Positions 360 to 33,879 of a DNA stretch of 57,694 nt are shown here, piece after piece (position 1 is the first letter of the stretch; the number at the start of each line of letters is the position of its first letter). The translations under genes were made by a program, and so were the position numbers. Origin of the DNA: Chloroflexi bacterium OLB15 (GTDB taxonomy: Bacteria; Chloroflexota; Anaerolineae; Aggregatilineales; Phototrophicaceae); NCBI GenBank assembly GCA_001567085.1, contig LMZS01000092.1:1-57694 (forward strand), in the 5' to 3' direction. The notes below the pieces were generated by a model. The model worked only from the letters and a program-made list of their open reading frames with translations, made no database searches and was not told the origin of the DNA.

Positions 360-746
360 CCTGCTGCGCCTGTTTTTAAGTATGAAAAATGTAGGCAGCA
401 ATCTTACATCCCCTGCCAGCTTGATCGCTATGCTTAATGCCATCTTCAAGCGCTGCGCCTGTGGTGAAATCACCGGATACTAAAGCATTTCACAACGGCA
501 GCGCTAAACCACGTGGCATCCCCAAAATGCGTTCGCCCGTCAGGCAAAGGCATTTAAGCGCCCGCTTGAAACACCCCGCTTTTCACTTTTAGCCACTCGC
601 AAATTTGCGATCACATTGCTGGCAATATGGATACCCTTCAACAGAAAATCCGTGCTACTTTAGGGTTAACATCGGTCATTTACAGAAAGTTGAGCATCTC
701 TCCGGCTTCACCTTCCTGATGCCGGACGAAAGGAGCTGTACAAACT
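360..746. other. Divergent intergenic region, no gene seen
   Basis: This 387-bp gap separates the divergent propeller and GH13 genes and must hold promoters for both. I see no convincing ORF, RNA fold or operator. The only clear signal is the ribosome binding site GAAAGGAG at about 728-735 for the GH13 gene. Confidence 0.5.
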
Positions 747-2984
747 ATGATTGTTCACTTTGATAACCTTGGCGGCTTTGCGCCAGTTTCCCTGTTACTG
801 CGTGCTGGAGATCAGAAGCCACAGCTTATTGCGCCTTCAGGCAGCGATGAGTTCGGCGCCGTCTTTGTGCTTCCTGAAGCGCAGGAGTGGCGCCAATTCA
901 AATTCGGCAGGCCGGGTTCTGAAACCACGCCGCCCGTTTTTGAGGGCGATTCTCATTGGCGCTCACTGCCGCCTGCCAGTGTCCGCGCACTTAACGAGAT
1001 ATGGGCGCGCAGTCAGCATCCTTTCGTCCACACTGTGCAGCCCGCCCCTGTTTCGCAGCATACTGCGGCTGAAATTGCGTCAACGCTGGAATTTAAGGCA
1101 GGCGCATACCTCAGTGACACCGCTGGCGCTTTCGCGCTCGGCGCAAATGTGTTGCAAAATGGCGGCGTATCATTCGGCTTTTTCCACCCTCATGCGGCAA
1201 GAGTTTTCTTAGCTGGCACCTTCAACGATTGGGCTTATCCCGGCGCGGAAAACGCCGATGAGCGCAAGTTCATCGAAATGACGCTGCATAAAGGCTACTT
1301 TGACCTGCCTAATATCTGGCATGCTCAGGTCAGCCATGCAAAAGCGGGCGATCTCTATCGAATTTACGTCGAATTTGGCGCGCTGGCCGGTGCGGACGAT
1401 CTAGGTTCCGTGCTGGCGGTTGATCCCTATGCGCGCGCATTAGGGGAAGATATGCAGCGTAATGATGGCCTGATTGTTGATCCTTCGCTTTTTCAGTGGG
1501 AGGATGCGAGCTTCGAGACAGCCGCAGTTCACGATCTGGTCATTTATGAACTGCATGTGCATGGCTTCACCTTCGGTCACGCTGATGTCCCTCCGGAAAA
1601 TCAGGGGCGATTTGCTGGCGTAACTGACCGCATCCGCGCTGGCTACTTTGATCAATTAGGGGCAACAGCCATTTACCTGATGCCCGTTGCCGAATCGCCC
1701 AGCCCGCAGGGCGAACACGCGATGGGCTATAACACCTCAGTGTTTACAGCCGTCGAGCGCGATTTCGGTTCGCCTGATGAATTACGCGCGCTGGTCAATG
1801 CGGCGCATCAGGCCGGGCTTTCGGTGATCGCAGATCAGGTTTTCACCCATACCGCCAACGATTTCAACCCGCTGTGGAAGTTGATACTGAATCACCCCGA
1901 CGAAGCTGAACGAGATGATGAAGGCGGGCTGTATTTCAGCGGCGAAACCCCCTGGGGCAACCGTATCGCCACCGAGCGCCCCGAAGTCCAGAATTTTCTG
2001 ATTGACGTTTGCAAGTATTTCCTGAAGGAATACCACCTTGATGGCTTCCGCTACGATTTCACCCATAGTTCGCTGATGAATCACGGATTCATGCAGCGTA
2101 TGGCAGATGAATTACAGGCCATTAAGCCAGAGGTGATTCTGATTGCCGAAAACATGCCCAATGAGCAGGATTTGAACCGCCGGGGGTTTGATGGTTACGG
2201 GCAGTGGTGCAATAACTTTCACGACACCATCAAAGCGCTGCTGCGCGAAGGTGTATTTGAGGCCGAAACCAACGATCCGCGAACCATCGGCTCAATCTTC
2301 TATTTCTCAAAAGACAGTTTTGCGGCGCATACCAATAACGTGGTGAATTACTGCGAAAGCCACGATGAAAATAGCGTCGCCTTTGAAGTGGGAACGGTTG
2401 GGGCGTTAAACAATCCCGCCTCTAAAGAGCGTAAATCTCGTCTCGGTCTGTTCGCAACGATGGTGGCGTTGGGGCAGCCCATGATCTACATGGGCGCAGA
2501 GTTTGGCGCTGAACGTGAGCGCAATACGACGTACTATACAGCGCCGAAAAATCCTGACGACAGTGGTTTCTTTGCGTGGGCATCAAGGCTAATACGGCTT
2601 CGGCGGCGCTATCCAGGGCTAAAGCTGCATGGCTACAACCCGATTGCAGACGGGCAATTTGAGTGGATTGCCGGAACATGGCTGGATGATCAGCATGGCG
2701 CAGGCAGGCGCGTGGTAGGCTGGCGTTCAATGCCATCCGCCAACCCATTGGAGACAATCATCGTGCTGCTCAATTTTGAAAACTACGATGTCGAAATTGA
2801 CCTTGAATTAGGCATCCCCGGCAAATGGGCGCGCCTGGCCGATATTGATTTCGTGAACGATCTCGCGCCGGAAGGCAGCTACGATCCCGCAAGCCCTATC
2901 ACCATCGTCACCCCAAATGGCCGCTTTCCTGGGTTTACCATACAAGACTCATCAGGGTTCATCTATAAATGGATTGGCAGCTAA
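747..2984 (+). CDS. GH13 alpha-glucan branching-enzyme-like protein
   Basis: This 745-residue protein has an extra N-terminal part of about 130 residues, a CBM48-like beta domain (about 140-230, with FFHPHAARVFLAGTFNDWAY) and a GH13 (beta/alpha)8 barrel (about 264-600). The catalytic triad is visible: nucleophile D437 in GFRYDFTHS, acid/base E468 in LIAENMPNE and stabiliser D540 in ESHDENS. The CBM48 plus barrel layout fits 1,4-alpha-glucan branching enzymes and malto-oligosyltrehalose trehalohydrolases, so it probably rearranges or trims glycogen-type glucans in the cytoplasm; no signal peptide is seen. Strand region I reads DQVFTH instead of the usual DVVxNH, so exact specificity is uncertain. 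The ATG at 747 follows a good Shine-Dalgarno. It converges on a GNAT gene 38 bp away. Confidence 0.82.
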   Translation: MIVHFDNLGGFAPVSLLLRAGDQKPQLIAPSGSDEFGAVFVLPEAQEWRQFKFGRPGSETTPPVFEGDSHWRSLPPASVRALNEIWARSQHPFVHTVQPAPVSQHTAAEIASTLEFKAGAYLSDTAGAFALGANVLQNGGVSFGFFHPHAARVFLAGTFNDWAYPGAENADERKFIEMTLHKGYFDLPNIWHAQVSHAKAGDLYRIYVEFGALAGADDLGSVLAVDPYARALGEDMQRNDGLIVDPSLFQWEDASFETAAVHDLVIYELHVHGFTFGHADVPPENQGRFAGVTDRIRAGYFDQLGATAIYLMPVAESPSPQGEHAMGYNTSVFTAVERDFGSPDELRALVNAAHQAGLSVIADQVFTHTANDFNPLWKLILNHPDEAERDDEGGLYFSGETPWGNRIATERPEVQNFLIDVCKYFLKEYHLDGFRYDFTHSSLMNHGFMQRMADELQAIKPEVILIAENMPNEQDLNRRGFDGYGQWCNNFHDTIKALLREGVFEAETNDPRTIGSIFYFSKDSFAAHTNNVVNYCESHDENSVAFEVGTVGALNNPASKERKSRLGLFATMVALGQPMIYMGAEFGAERERNTTYYTAPKNPDDSGFFAWASRLIRLRRRYPGLKLHGYNPIADGQFEWIAGTWLDDQHGAGRRVVGWRSMPSANPLETIIVLLNFENYDVEIDLELGIPGKWARLADIDFVNDLAPEGSYDPASPITIVTPNGRFPGFTIQDSSGFIYKWIGS

Positions 2985-3666: not shown

Positions 3667-4758
3667 TTACTCCGGCAGCAAATGAACGGCTTCGGGGATA
3701 AAGTCAATGCCAATCGTCTCGCCTTCGGCAAACATATGCTGCCTGCGCGGATCATTATCGGCAATCGTGATCGTAGTGCCATCCAGATTGATCAGATACT
3801 CGATTTCCGTACCCAGGTACATGGCCTGCTCAATGATCGCCTGTGGCAGTGAGGCATCCTTCCGAAGCAATAGCGCTTCGGGGCGCAGCATTGCCGTTAC
3901 TTCTGTGCCTGCCGCCATCTCAAACGGGGCGCGGGTCTCAATCTGTTTGCCCAGTAAGCTCAGGCTTACCTGCCCATTTGTGACAGCCTTCGCAGTGGCC
4001 GGCAAGAAATTAGCGCGTCCAATAAAGTCGGCTACGAAGCGAGTTTTCGGGTAATGATAAATTTCTTCAGGCGTGCCCATCTGCTCGATTTTGCCTTTAT
4101 TCATCACCACGATGCGATCAGAAAGCGCCATCGCCTCAACCTGATCATGAGTCACGTAAATGCTGGTGATTCCCAGGCTGCGCTGCAAGCGGTGAATTTC
4201 ACTGCGCATCTGCACGCGCAGTTTGGCATCAAGGTTGGAAAGTGGTTCGTCAAACAGCAAAATGCGCGGTTCCATCACCAGCGAACGCGCCAGCGCCACG
4301 CGCTGCTGCTGCCCGCCGGAAAGCTGGTTTGGCCGTCTATCCCCCAACCCGCCAAGCCCCATGGTATTCAGCGACGAGTTCACTTTTTCCCGTATTTGAG
4401 CGCGGGGCATCTTTTGCGATTGCAGCCCATAAGCCACATTGTCGAAAACAGACATGTGCGGAAACAGCGCGTAATTTTGGAAGACCAGCGCCATATCCCG
4501 TTTATTCGGCGGCTGCTGGGTAATATCCTTTTCTTCCAGCGAAATCTTTCCCTGATTAGGCATTTCAAACCCTGCGATCAGGCGCAAGGTCGTCGTTTTA
4601 CCGCAGCCCGAAGGGCCAAGCAGCGTCAAAAATTCGCCATCGTAAATATCAAGCGAAACTTCATCCACCGCCCGCACCGCGCCGCGCCCGCTGCGATCAG
4701 GAAATTCTTTGACGATGTTCACCAACTTTAGCAAAACCTGTTTCGATTGTTCTTCCAT
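3667..4758 (-). CDS. ABC transporter ATP-binding protein, FbpC/PotA type
   Basis: A 363-residue ATPase of the importer class with a C-terminal regulatory TOBE/OB region. Walker A is GPSGCGKTT (48-56), the Q-loop is in VFQNYALFP, the signature is LSGGQ (146-150), Walker B is ILLFDE (166-171) and the switch His is H204. About 120 residues after the nucleotide-binding domain form the TOBE-like part. It is the last gene of a three-gene minus-strand operon, 2 bp after the permease stop. It powers the adjacent fused permease; the transported ligand is discussed under the binding protein. Confidence 0.93.
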
Positions 4759-26690: not shown

Positions 26691-27134
26691 ATGCTTCGCT
26701 TTCGTAAATTTTTCCCCTTAGTGCTGAGCATAGCGGTTCTGCTCGTGCTTAGCGCGCCCATCTTGGCGCAGGATACACCTGCATACCTCAATCCCGATCT
26801 TCCTGTAGAGGAGCGCGTGGCTGACTTGCTGGCGCGTATGTCGCTCGAAGAAAAAATCGGGCAAATGACTCAGATTGAGAAAAACAGCCTCACCCCTGCT
26901 GATGTCACCGAATGGTTCATCGGCAGCGTACTTAGCGGCGGCGGCGGCTATCCCTTCCCCAACACGCCTGAAGCATGGGCGGCGATGGTAAATAGCTTTC
27001 AAGAAGCCGCGCTGGCAACCCCGCTGGCGATCCCGATGATTTACGGCGTTGACGCGGTACACGGGCATAACAACGTTGAAGGCGCGGTCATCTTCCCGCA
27101 AAAACGTGGGGCTTGGCGCAACCCGCAACGCTGA
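26691..27134 (+). CDS. N-terminal fragment of the secreted GH3-CBM-GH16 enzyme
   Basis: The ATG at 26691 follows AGGAG by five bases. The frame gives the signal peptide and the first part of GH3 (IGQMTQIEKNSLTPADVT, GVDAVHGHNNVEGAVIFP) and then leaves the true frame at the A5 run 27100-27104, ending at 27134 with about 11 nonsense residues. Confidence 0.8.
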   Translation: MLRFRKFFPLVLSIAVLLVLSAPILAQDTPAYLNPDLPVEERVADLLARMSLEEKIGQMTQIEKNSLTPADVTEWFIGSVLSGGGGYPFPNTPEAWAAMVNSFQEAALATPLAIPMIYGVDAVHGHNNVEGAVIFPQKRGAWRNPQR

Positions 27135-29622
27135 GCTTGTCGAAGAAACGGCAAGGATCACCGCGCGGGAAATGATCGCTACCGGCATTTACTGGAACTT
27201 TGCGCCAGTGATCGCCGTACCGCAGGATATTCGCTGGGGGCGCGCTTATGAGGGCTTCGGCGAAAACACTGATCTGGTGACTGAACTCGGCACCGCTTAT
27301 CTGCGCGGGCTACAGGGCGAATCGCTCTCTGATCCCGGCTCAGTGTTAGGCACTCCCAAGCATTTCATCGGTGATGGCGGCGCGGCATGGGGAACATCGC
27401 CCTTCGGGCCGCAAAACATTGACCGGGGCGAAACAATGGTGGATGAAGCGCGGCTGCGCGAACTGTATCTGCCGCCCTATATCGCTGCTATCGAAAATGG
27501 CGCGCAGAGCATCATGATCTCGTTCTCCAGTTGGGACGGCCTGCCGATGCATGCCCAATCCTACCTGATTAACGATGTACTCAAGGGCGAACTGGGCTTT
27601 ACCGGGTTCACGATCTCCGACTGGGCAGGCATTGATACTATCGGCACGGATTATTACGCCGCCGTCGTCACCGCCATCAATGCAGGCGTTGACATGAACA
27701 TGGTTCCCTATGATTTTGAACAGTTCATCAATGTGATGCTGGAAGCGGTTGAAAATGGCGATATTACTATCGAGCGCATTGATGATGCTGTAAGCCGTAT
27801 CCTGCGAGTCAAATTTGAACTCGGCCTGTTTGAACATCCGTTTAGCGATCCTTCGCTGATCCCCACTGTTGGCGCAGATGAACACCGTGCCGTCGCCCGC
27901 GAAGCAGTCAGCCAATCGCTGGTTTTGCTGAAGAACGAGAATGAGGCGCTGCCGATTTTGGCAGAAGCCCAAACGATTTTCGTCGCTGGCACAGCGGCTG
28001 ATGACATCGGCTTGCAATCTGGCGGCTGGTCTATTGAATGGCAGGGCCGCGCAGGCAATATCACTGAGGGAACAACCATCCTTGAAGCGTTGGAGGCGGC
28101 GGTATCTGAAGGCACAGATGTGCGCTACAACCGCTTTGGGCGTTTTGAAAACTTCACCGACGATGCGGGCAACCCGCTGATCGCAGATATTGGTATTGTG
28201 GTGATCAGCGAACCGCCATATGCCGAATATGAAGGCGACAGCGCATCACTGGAGCTGGCAGAATCAGAGTGGAGCACCGTTGAACGGCTGCGCCCGCTGG
28301 TTGAGAAGCTGGTTGTGGTTGTGCTCTCTGGCCGCCCGATGATCATCAATGATGCGATTGTGAGCGCGGATGCGGTTGTGGCTGCTTGGCTGCCCGGCAC
28401 CGAAGGCGCAGGGGTAGCTGATGTGCTGCTTGGCGACTTGCCTTTTGTTGGCAAATTGCCATATACATGGCCGCGCAGCGTAGACCAACTGCCGTTTGAC
28501 TTCGCAAATCTAGCGTCTGAGGGCTGCGACGCGCCGTTGTTCCCCTATGATTACGGCTTAACCTATGAAAACAGCGAATCATCATGGGTTGATCTGGCGA
28601 TTGAATGCAGCGGGGGTGAAGTTGCAGCTGCCGCATCCGCTGAAGCTGACGCTGTAGAAACAGCAGCGAGCAACAGTTTTTTAGCACCTGAGGGCGTAAG
28701 TGGGGAAACCTACTACGCCCCTTTCCCGGTTAGCATCGCACTCGATGGCGACCTTGCTGATTGGGCAGGCGTGCCGCGCGTAGTACTGGCCGGGGCTTCT
28801 GAGACGCCAACGGTCAGCTTTGCAGCAGCGGCTGATGGTGATAACCTTTATTTCAGCGCCGATGTGACCGACGACAGCATCATCACCGGGCAGCATGGCA
28901 CAGATTACTGGAATGAAGATTCAGTCGAGTTTTACCTCAACGCTACCGGCGATCTGAATTTAAGCGAATATATCGCTGGCGTCGCTCAGATCACTATTCC
29001 AGCATTGAACGCCAATCAACCTGAAGAACCAGCTATTGGGGGCATGCAGGGCGCAAGCGCTGATGCTCAGGTTTCAGTGGTTCTTACCGATACTGGCTAC
29101 AGGGTAGAAGCGGCGGTGCCGCTGGTCAACGATGTATGGGAAATTGTGCCAGAGCATGACGGCATTCTTGGCTTTCAGGTGCATTTGAACAGCGCATCTT
29201 CAGCAGATCGCGATACTAAGCTGATCTGGTCGGTATTTGACAGCAGCGATCAATCGTATCTCGATCCCGGTCTATTCGGCCAATTGATCTTCTTTGAAGT
29301 GGGTGAGGAAGCCGCGTTAGAAAACGGAGAAAGCAGCGAAACAGTTGTGGCAGAAGATAACGTTACATGGGATTCCCGCGAATGGGTGCTGGTGTGGTCA
29401 GATGAGTTTGATGGCGAAGCCGGAACACCCGTTAATTCAGAATACTGGACGCACGACGTTGGCGGTCATGGCTGGGGGAACAACCAGCTTGAGTATGACA
29501 CCAACGATCCTGAAAACGCATCACTAGATGGCAACGGCAATCTGGCAATTGTGGCACGCGAGGGCAGCCCCGAAGGGCGCTTCTGCCATTATGGCAATTG
29601 TGACTACACTTCCGCGCGCTGA
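27105..29622 (+). CDS. Central fragment: rest of GH3, CBM9-like domain, start of GH16
   Basis: From about 27105 this frame continues GH3 (VGLGATRNAELVEET, EGFGENTDL, TISDWAG) through the sandwich domain. A linker of alanine and glutamate follows, then the CBM9-like domain (IALDGDLADWAGVPRVVLAG, YWNEDSVEFYLN), then the GH16 start (WVLVWSDEFDGE). It ends at TGA 29620-29622 inside the conserved GH16 stretch CHYGNCDYTSAR, caused by the missing base. Confidence 0.8.
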
Positions 29623-30125
29623 TCACCCGTAACAACGTTGAATTTACCTATGGGCGCGTTGAAGCGCGCATCCAAATTCCGCGCGGGCAAGGGATATGGC
29701 CTGCATTCTGGATGCTGGGTTCAAATTTCCAGCGTGTCGGCTGGCCGGCAAGTGGCGAAATTGACATCATGGAAAATGTGGGCAAGGAACCGCAAAACGT
29801 GTATGGAACTGTGCATGGCCCCGGCTATTCCGGCGGCGATGGGGTTGGCGGTTCTTACAGCATGGGCGAAAATTTTGCCGATGATTTCCATGTCTACGCG
29901 GTAGATTGGGATCCTGATGCCATTCGCTGGTATGTGGATGGCGAGTTGGTAAATACTATCACCCCCGACGATCTGCGCGGCAATCAGTGGGTCTTTGATC
30001 ACGACTTTTTCATCATCCTGAACGTCGCGGTAGGCGGATACTGGCCGGGCAATCCTGATGAGACTACCGAGTTTCCGCAAACGATGCTGGTGGATTATGT
30101 GCGCGTGTATCAACTGGCAGAGTAA
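29622..30125 (+). CDS. C-terminal fragment: GH16 catalytic core
   Basis: From 29622 the frame reads ITRNNVEFTYGRVEARIQIP and then SGEIDIMENVG, with the GH16 nucleophile Glu, the central Asp and the acid/base Glu of ExDxxE, and ends with the beta-sandwich close LVDYVRVYQLAE. An internal ATG at 29712 could only start a non-functional piece. Confidence 0.8.
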   Translation: MTRNNVEFTYGRVEARIQIPRGQGIWPAFWMLGSNFQRVGWPASGEIDIMENVGKEPQNVYGTVHGPGYSGGDGVGGSYSMGENFADDFHVYAVDWDPDAIRWYVDGELVNTITPDDLRGNQWVFDHDFFIILNVAVGGYWPGNPDETTEFPQTMLVDYVRVYQLAE

Positions 30126-32550: not shown

Positions 32551-32937
32551 TTACACCGCCCGCGTTGCCACCCTTGTCAGCAATTCCTGAACGCCATACA
32601 CCAGCCTTGAGCTAAGCTGTGATTTGCACAAAAACTGGGTTGCGCCCGCATCCATGCTGCGCTGGATGGTCGAGCGATCATCATTTGACGAGAAAATCAT
32701 AACCGGCGTATAACGGGTATTGGTGCGCCGCCGAAGTTCCCGGCACAGATCAATACCATTGCCATCAGGCAGCATCACATCCAGGATGAACAGACTTGGG
32801 ATGACGCTATCAAGTATGCTGAGGGCAGAACGGACATTGGGCGCCGTTTTAACCTCATAGCCTCTGCGCTCAAGCAAAATCTTAACGATTGAACGAAAGG
32901 CCTTATCGTCATCCACCACTACGATAAGTTCAGCCAT
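32551..32937 (-). CDS. Single-domain response regulator
   Basis: A 128-residue CheY-like receiver with no output domain. The acidic cluster DDD is near residue 9-11, the phosphoacceptor Asp is in FILDVMLPDGNG, the Ser/Thr switch is in MIFSSND and the Lys is in FLCKSQ. The frame extends to a TTG at 32961, but AGGAG lies 11 bases before the ATG at 32937. It is the last gene of the minus-strand cluster with the small NHLP-like protein and the twin peptides. No histidine kinase is in the window, so its phosphodonor is unknown. Confidence 0.88.
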   Translation of the reverse strand: MAELIVVVDDDKAFRSIVKILLERRGYEVKTAPNVRSALSILDSVIPSLFILDVMLPDGNGIDLCRELRRRTNTRYTPVMIFSSNDDRSTIQRSMDAGATQFLCKSQLSSRLVYGVQELLTRVATRAV

Positions 32938-32978
32938 TTTAGATACCACTCCTGCAAACAACCGGGTAAGTTACGCCG

Positions 32979-33272: not shown

Positions 33273-33332
33273 GAAATTGCTCCTTCAAGGATAGTTGGAA
33301 GCTTTAGCCATTCAGGTAAAACTTAAGTCCAA

Positions 33333-33449
33333 TCAGCCACCGGAAAAGCCACCGCCACCTGCCGGGCCGGCAAAAGCGATTGCGGTCGGAAGAAGCGCCA
33401 GAATAGTTGTCACTGCAACGGCGATAGCGATCTTAATGCGAGCGTTCAT
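33333..33449 (-). CDS. Short secreted-looking peptide, copy A (38 aa)
   Basis: A 38-residue ORF too short for usual callers. Residues 1-6 are basic (MNARIK), 7-24 hydrophobic, and 25-27 AFA look like a signal-peptidase site. The remaining GPAGGGGFSGG (11 residues) would be the exported peptide; alternatively the whole is a membrane peptide. A GGGGGA box lies just before the ATG. The protein is identical to copy B, with three nucleotide differences, all at synonymous third positions, while flanking DNA is unrelated. That is strong evidence that it is translated and under selection. Function is unknown. Confidence 0.72.
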   Translation of the reverse strand: MNARIKIAIAVAVTTILALLPTAIAFAGPAGGGGFSGG

Positions 33450-33503
33450 TTCGTTTCCCCCAAAGGAAAATTAAATCGGGCAAAATTAAATGTCTTTGAA
33501 AAA

Positions 33504-33620
33504 TCAGCCACCGGAAAAGCCACCGCCACCTGCCGGGCCAGCAAAAGCGATTGCGGTTGGAAGAAGCGCCAGAATGGTTGTCACTGCAACGGCGATAGCG
33601 ATCTTAATGCGAGCGTTCAT
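33504..33620 (-). CDS. Short secreted-looking peptide, copy B (38 aa)
   Basis: The second copy, 54 bp upstream of copy A on the minus strand, encodes exactly the same 38 residues (basic start, hydrophobic core, AFA, then a glycine-rich tail ending FSGG). A GGGAGTAGGGG region precedes the ATG. It is the first small gene after the 1048-aa regulator, separated from it by a 259-bp gap. I do not recognise a named family. Confidence 0.72.
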   Translation of the reverse strand: MNARIKIAIAVAVTTILALLPTAIAFAGPAGGGGFSGG

Positions 33621-33879
33621 TGTTCCCCTACTCCCGTTAACTAAAGAACTATGCAAATAGATTGGGGAAAATATATCAGGGGGTGTGCAACAAAGTGCTT
33701 ACCAGAGAAAAAACCAGCAAAAAACCGTCAAAAATGGCGGATTTTGTGTTTGCAAACGGGTTTAGAGCAGCTAGCTTATCGCCAGTTATGGGTTAAGTAT
33801 TGCAAAATCTGCTGTCTTGGCGTGCCCCCATGCTACGGGGGAAAGCGCAGCCGTCAGGTCGGGGTGAGGGTCTTGAACG

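Follow-up and report, generated by a model that had tools for sequence, protein, structure and literature searches.

Twin peptide genes beside a SARP-STAND-TPR regulator form a candidate peptide-signalling cassette in Chloroflexota

The two short open reading frames at positions 33333-33449 and 33504-33620 (minus strand) of the 57,694-nucleotide stretch of Chloroflexi bacterium OLB15 DNA that was analysed here as a whole (the window) are genes under purifying selection, and both these peptide genes and the cassette around them are well supported. In our best reading, to which we assign a probability of about 0.55, they would provide a self-inducing peptide signal that is sensed by the SARP-STAND-TPR activator encoded next to them, resembling the RRNPP systems in its working and not in its descent. 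A wider reading, based on the comparison of genomes, has a little less than an even chance: a whole class of Chloroflexota would possess a peptide quorum-sensing system that does not share its descent with RRNPP. Arrays of almost identical micro-genes would supply a Gly/Ser-rich tail as inducer of an AfsR/MalT-type SARP-STAND-TPR activator, in secreted and in leaderless versions.

Both ORFs encode the same 38-residue product, MNARIKIAIAVAVTTILALLPTAIAFAGPAGGGGFSGG, as the first-pass annotation had reported. Comparison of the codons confirmed that the copies differ in 3 of 117 bases, every difference being synonymous and at a third codon position. The copy at 33504-33620 is transcribed first and is separated from the second by a 54-nt spacer (33450-33503, minus strand), which is unlike the stretch preceding the first copy and contains the second ribosome-binding site. 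The 54 nt preceding the two ORFs share 33% and the 54 nt 3' of them 30% ungapped identity, so that the flanks and the spacer are indeed unrelated. The identity had been described as ending exactly at the start and stop codons, and it does end within 2 nt of them, as the repeat is detected as a single 120-nt pair (33331-33450 and 33502-33621, 98% identical). A Shine-Dalgarno sequence had been attributed to each copy; by eye, that of the first copy is clear (GGGAGTAGGGGAACA-ATG) but that of the second is weaker (GGGGGAAACGAA-ATG). A third copy was not found in the own genome, whose assembly is 91% complete. Three synonymous differences alone would be thin evidence for coding, but the coding status is solid because relatives carry homologous peptides, whose absence had been named as one of the findings that would speak against these genes.

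Selection was assessed over 16 pairs of copies or orthologues, in which 167.5 synonymous and 76.5 non-synonymous changes fall on 638 and 1588 sites, respectively (pS 0.26, pN 0.05; 71% of the sites are non-synonymous), and the three codon positions account for 54, 24, and 166 changes. The purifying selection proposed earlier is thus borne out by mainly synonymous change. Six overlapping pairs were left out of this total, including G010 a/b and G026 c1/c2, which are weakly constrained (dN/dS 0.63 and 0.57); weak constraint is also seen in two pairs within the 16 (G039/n124 and L098/L099). At least two peptide copies are present in 8 of the 30 genomes of the order that encode the regulator, with two copies in the window and in G152, three in G026, five in G041, and eight in G018. 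Another genome (G055, L163) contains at least two copies and a third that is cut by a run of N (about 4107-4328, reverse strand). In G010 and G033, one copy is found at each of two contig ends, and for G010 this suggests that a tandem repeat interrupted the assembly there as well. In this near relative the two copies share the ending FGGG, and the two window copies the ending FSGG. Gene conversion or independent duplications would produce such a pattern, which agrees with the earlier proposal of homogenised copies. Gene conversion is also suggested by the homogeneous ORFs of the window amid unrelated spacers.

On the minus strand of the window, the regulator gene (37026-33880) is followed by a conserved promoter element (33704-33670), the two peptide genes (33620-33504 and 33449-33333), the gene of a 97-residue protein that we call P97 (33272-32979), and the gene of a receiver-domain protein (32937-32551). 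The next gene beyond, encoding a DUF2218 protein, is on the opposite strand. The regulator has 1048 residues and comprises a MalT-like STAND ATPase, a TPR region, and a C-terminal winged helix with BTAD (Pfam: AAA/STAND, TPR_12 with 4.4e-18 among the TPR matches, and BTAD with 4.9e-13). A profile built from 32 homologues matches MalT (8bob, 6.7e-72) with its N-terminal third (profile positions 11-415) and the SARP domain of AfsR (8jke, 9.2e-40) with its C-terminus (811-1057), and the succession of an OmpR-like winged helix and BTAD is the architecture of SARPs. Its match to NprR (2.1e-10) reflects generic TPR similarity and is weaker than that to kinesin light chain. The HTH_3-type domain of RRNPP receptors was not found in the regulator by domain searches; MalT STAND and AfsR SARP domains were found there.

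P97 is a divergent relative of the Os1348/NHLP clan. Its residues 40-94 match NCBIfam NF038399 weakly (16.2 bits), below the cut-off of 40 bits; of five relatives tested in other orders, two exceed it (54.7 and 40.4 bits). The predicted structure of P97 is poor (mean pLDDT 63.5) and gave no Foldseek match, and the comparison with Os1348 in the PDB (6lk7) reached only E 0.42. The receiver protein does not have an output domain (Response_reg, 2.5e-24), and its start is an ATG within a longer ORF (32551-32961); a receiver match is found 3' of P97 in 23 of 29 genomes of the order. In six loci of other orders (L135-L140), a DUF5317-like membrane ORF lies between peptide and P97, which Pfam confirmed for all three submitted sequences. 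Elsewhere in the window, at 26691-30125 (plus strand), a gene for a glycoside hydrolase family 3/CBM9 protein with a glucanase-like C-terminus, presumably GH16-like, is split over three frames (26691-27134, 27049-29622, and 29712-30125) by either frameshifts or assembly errors.

The distribution of the cassette was determined in the own genome and 40 relatives (41 genomes). A direct search with the peptide gave significant matches in G010 only (4.5e-17 and 1.7e-16; next best 0.01), and more relatives were reached through synteny, the element, and the regulator. P97 homologues are encoded in 13 of the 41 genomes, and these are exactly the genomes retrieved with the regulator (E <= 1e-60, up to 19 candidates scored per genome). 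This co-occurrence has a probability of 5.7e-11 under independence of the genomes, which are not independent. The element and peptide genes are present in all 13, those of G025 being reached via its regulator. G025 encodes P97 and the receiver protein on one contig and the regulator, followed by element and peptide gene, on another. Thus, the pair of regulator and peptide does not have to be linked to P97. In the relatives, the DNA that separates the regulator gene from P97 contains peptide ORFs with a ribosome-binding site, a hydrophobic core, and a Gly/Ser-rich tail.

A 31-base pattern of the element, allowing at most one mismatch, matches 36 of the 154 genomes of the order, compared to 6 of 154 for the backward control. 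The regulator is encoded in 29 of these 36 and missing from seven, and 12 of the 36 belong to the 13 genomes described above. Among the other 24, all 16 that have both element and peptide carry the regulator, while seven of the remaining eight lack it; one of these eight, G070, has the full cassette of regulator, element, peptide, P97, and receiver gene. Across the class, 47 of 298 genomes encode P97-like proteins, and at the 21 such loci examined outside the order a regulator of this kind lies upstream in 17, a hydrophobic peptide ORF is present in 17, and both are present in 16. A narrower profile (A3) found 17 loci in genome contigs, and the named records matching P97 are from Anaerolineae, Chloroflexi, Ardenticatenia, and Thermoflexus assemblies. 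One genome, G146, encodes three regulator paralogues (L177, L178, L179), one with its own element and peptide (contig C26), one with a P97-like gene directly downstream (C114), and one with neither (C125); a further contig (C21) contains element and peptide without a regulator beside them. Gene callers had been expected to miss both window genes. This fits the 32 protein clusters matching the peptide profile (E <= 1) compared to 411 for the neighbouring P97 (E <= 0.001), but matches to so short a query are also more easily missed. The peptide gene family has largely been overlooked by annotation.

The promoter element (33670-33704, minus strand) consists of a box, TGGTAAGCACTTTGTTGCACAC (33683-33704), a gap of 7 bp, and the -10-like hexamer TATATT (33670-33675). 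With up to three mismatches allowed over 26 bases, the own genome contains it only once, and the consensus 5' of the peptides is TGGTAAGCA(C/G)TTTGTTG followed by TAnnnT. Wherever a peptide is listed (25 element rows), its ATG follows the element at a distance of 72-99 nt; the 26th element row is that of G018, which has an array of mini-genes. The distance to the end of the regulator gene varies from 10 to 1106 nt, and therefore the element belongs to the peptide. It stays with the peptide in G152, where the regulator gene is divergent from the peptide gene, and in G006 and G089, where the regulator is on another contig and is not followed by an element. The "TA" of the -10 hexamer was included in the search pattern but is also present in all 12 genomes found without the pattern, and the sixth position, which was never included, is T in 26 of 27. 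By eye, a TTGACA-like hexamer was not seen at -35 of these promoters. A sigma-54 promoter was rejected, also by eye, as GG and GC are 13 and not 10 apart, and a known RNA was rejected as the window has no Rfam match at gathering thresholds and no tRNA.

Among 17 loci from other orders, six, representing four genera, have SARP-type 11-bp direct repeats ahead of the -10 hexamer, arranged like the published afs box, with 7-9 of 9 matches and at most 1 of 300 mononucleotide shuffles being as good. One genus (three loci scored) has the succession CCGTGAGAGTT, CCGTGAGAGGT, CCCCCG, and TAAGAT, and the three further genera also reach 7-9 of 9 matches. In the other 11 of the 17 loci a convincing direct repeat is absent, and none of the 16 promoters tested in the window's own order has a significant one (best 2-4 of 9, reached by at least 140 of 300 shuffles). 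Here, the promoters have the conserved 22-bp box, 7 bp, and the -10 hexamer, and this distance matches that of the afs box. According to passages in PMC10936776, the target of AfsR is a small gene in whose promoter two 11-bp repeats make up a 22-bp box that overlaps the -35 zone, and in the published complex the box covers -40 to -19. By analogy with AfsR and this complex, the SARP domain would bind the element.

The leader of the peptides is recognizable by composition only: a basic start and a hydrophobic core are found in 27 of 28 peptides scored in the order (n121 is cut by a contig end), and the first 20 residues are net positive in 44 of 45 peptides. The aligned alanine preceding the tail is nearly invariant in 25 rows. 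Counts of AxA sites had to be rejected as proof of cleavage, as the 26 of 28 in the order are not significant against shuffled tails (mean 19.3, up to 27) and the 9 of 17 in other orders compare to 10.6. The tail core [AILMGS][TSAPG][SG]G is present in 25 of 28 tails, the pattern having been written after viewing them. Some tails of relatives contain cysteines (GAPICPAC, CPATGGGGCTGG).

G018 differs in having leaderless genes. Its element is followed by eight tandem mini-genes, spaced by 88-94 bp and each with a ribosome-binding site, which encode three distinct peptides of 20-22 residues, all ending in AGNAAGGSR and without a hydrophobic stretch (15-residue maximum 0.4). A further unit precedes P97 on a second contig, and over six 60-nt units pS is 0.25 and pN 0.016. 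The array (L153) is followed by a stretch like the start of P97 that soon reaches a stop codon, and an intact-looking P97 start is found on another contig (L049). Similar tails terminate leadered peptides of relatives (AGNAPGGSH in G146, AGSATGGSH in G138). Because the leaderless genes keep a homologous-looking tail, the C-terminal tail is likely to be the active part, and an insertion into the membrane, suggested earlier as one fate of the peptide, is unlikely as its general role. In G265 (L106, about 690-870, reverse strand), the regulator gene and the P97-like gene flank a leaderless ORF with three PPTYGGC repeats (MMRNLPPTYGGCRTTPPTYGGCCHTPPTYGGC), which is preceded by direct repeats of CCGTGAG spaced 11 bp apart.

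Which part of the regulator tracks the peptide was analysed by distance-matrix tests over 17 cassettes of the order, which are few and related sequences. The distances between peptides track those between TPR regions when STAND is controlled for (partial r 0.30, p 0.005) and likewise when the SARP half is (0.52, p 0.0005), and the last eight residues follow TPR beyond STAND with 0.47. P97 shows the opposite, following STAND and SARP beyond TPR (0.40 and 0.39). With 12 dereplicated cassettes the effect for the whole peptide holds (0.41, p 0.01), but that for the tail weakens (0.23, p 0.06). When the window is analysed together with 12 loci from other orders, the contributions of TPR and SARP cannot be told apart (0.29, p 0.01, for the peptide on SARP beyond TPR), and P97 no longer serves as a control. 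The covariation is supportive of peptide sensing by the TPR region, not decisive. Judging from the anatomy of the proteins and this covariation, the TPR region would sense the peptide tail.

The most probable role of the peptide, as far as genome comparison can tell, is that of an extracellular signal. The product of the twin ORFs would be a precursor that is exported and releases a short signalling peptide, its Gly/Ser-rich C-terminal tail, here predicted to be GPAGGGGFSGG. The tail would re-enter cells and activate the adjacent regulator, and the activated regulator would bind the upstream element so that more peptide is transcribed. OppA-type binding proteins are present (8 matches), and P97 and the receiver protein may act as outputs or modulators. 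Self-induction through the SARP regulator is likely, and the cassette is likely a form of bacterial cell-to-cell communication. However, tails as simple as these are unusual for a specific ligand, which counts against a signal.

The main rival, which we consider unlikely, is that the peptides are bacteriocin-like antimicrobials produced under the SARP regulator, with P97 as partner or immunity protein. Short hydrophobic Gly-rich tandem peptides resemble multi-peptide bacteriocins. SARPs activate antibiotic genes (passages in PMC10936776), and the clan of P97 is annotated as RiPP precursors and includes Os1348, a protein of 85 residues without which a Pseudomonas shows less antibiotic activity (passages in PMC7726476), which favours an antimicrobial. 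It counts against this that the G018 peptides keep the tail while being short and non-hydrophobic, that the copies are under purifying selection and not diversification, that the order cassettes contain no transporter- or maturase-like gene between regulator and receiver gene, and that YcaO is found in only 2 of 22 cassette genomes. An azole RiPP of the microcin B17 type was rejected, as YcaO is absent from the own genome (91% complete) and from 20 of the 22 cassette genomes.

Rather improbable is also that the peptide never leaves the cell. It would then be a small regulator, intracellular or attached to the membrane, with the SARP-STAND-TPR protein, P97, or the receiver protein as its binding partner, and an AfsS-like feedback part. 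The precedent of a SARP driving a small gene (AfsR-AfsS, passages in PMC10936776), the leaderless peptides of G018, and the weak cleavage-site statistics would agree with this, but the leader-like N-terminus of nearly all order peptides scored does not, and many near-identical copies fit the dose of a secreted product. There is a slim chance that enzymes from other loci modify the peptide as a RiPP precursor, with P97 as leader-type or escort protein and a modified signal or toxin as product; the clan to which P97 is related, the cysteines in some tails, and the PPTYGGC repeats point to it, but no maturase is seen in the cassette and YcaO, the maturase family searched for, is rare. Recent tandem duplicates without conserved function, as the mere three differences between the window copies might imply, are refuted by the class-wide cassette, the purifying selection, and the conserved promoter element.

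Knowledge of quorum sensing comes mostly from three phyla, and peptide signals are typical of Bacillota (passages in PMC10075063). The top matches of a literature search in works outside subscription papers and preprints contained no peptide signalling via SARPs or in Chloroflexota and no description of the cassette, which is a concrete candidate for peptide quorum sensing in this phylum. A self-inducing peptide signal would share several features with the RRNPP(A) systems of Bacillota (Rap-Phr, Rgg-SHP, NprR, PlcR, and the leaderless RopB-LCP). RRNPP(A) propeptides combine a signal-type leader with a short C-terminal active part, and their receptors belong to the Rap/Rgg/NprR/PlcR/PrgX/AimR lineage, with a DNA-binding domain of HTH_3 type where one is present. 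In both cases, a small peptide gene adjoins the gene of a TPR-bearing regulator (in the window by Pfam TPR), and the propeptide has a signal-type leader, which is here deduced from composition; the two genes are unlinked in G006 and G089. Tandem duplicated pheromones and leaderless signals are known in RRNPP-type systems as well (PMC11343458 and PMC10518010, respectively). In contrast to these systems, the receptor here combines a STAND ATPase of MalT type and a SARP domain of AfsR type, the host belongs to the Chloroflexota, and P97 and the receiver protein are part of the unit.

P97 shares with the Os1348/NHLP clan the match to NF038399, which for the window protein is below the cut-off. Unlike a RiPP precursor, P97 shows no obvious core peptide, and its gene is part of a regulatory cassette. 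The cassette suggests that some of the small proteins labelled as RiPP precursors (Os1348 family) belong to regulatory units. SARP-LAL regulators of the PimR type also combine SARP with a large ATPase, and their heptamer CGGCAAG/TGGCAAG (passages in PMC5930380) resembles TGGTAAG here, but their target is the regulator gene pimM and not a peptide gene. The AfsR-AfsS system of Streptomyces shares SARP, NOD/STAND, and TPR domains with the cassette, but the SARP domain is N-terminal in AfsR and C-terminal in the window regulator. AfsS is not known to be a secreted peptide. It is called a master regulator in passages of PMC10936776, which also leave open if the TPR sensor of AfsR has an inducer. 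In the cassette, the gene of a regulator with AfsR-like domains adjoins that of a candidate ligand, and the question of the AfsR inducer becomes testable.
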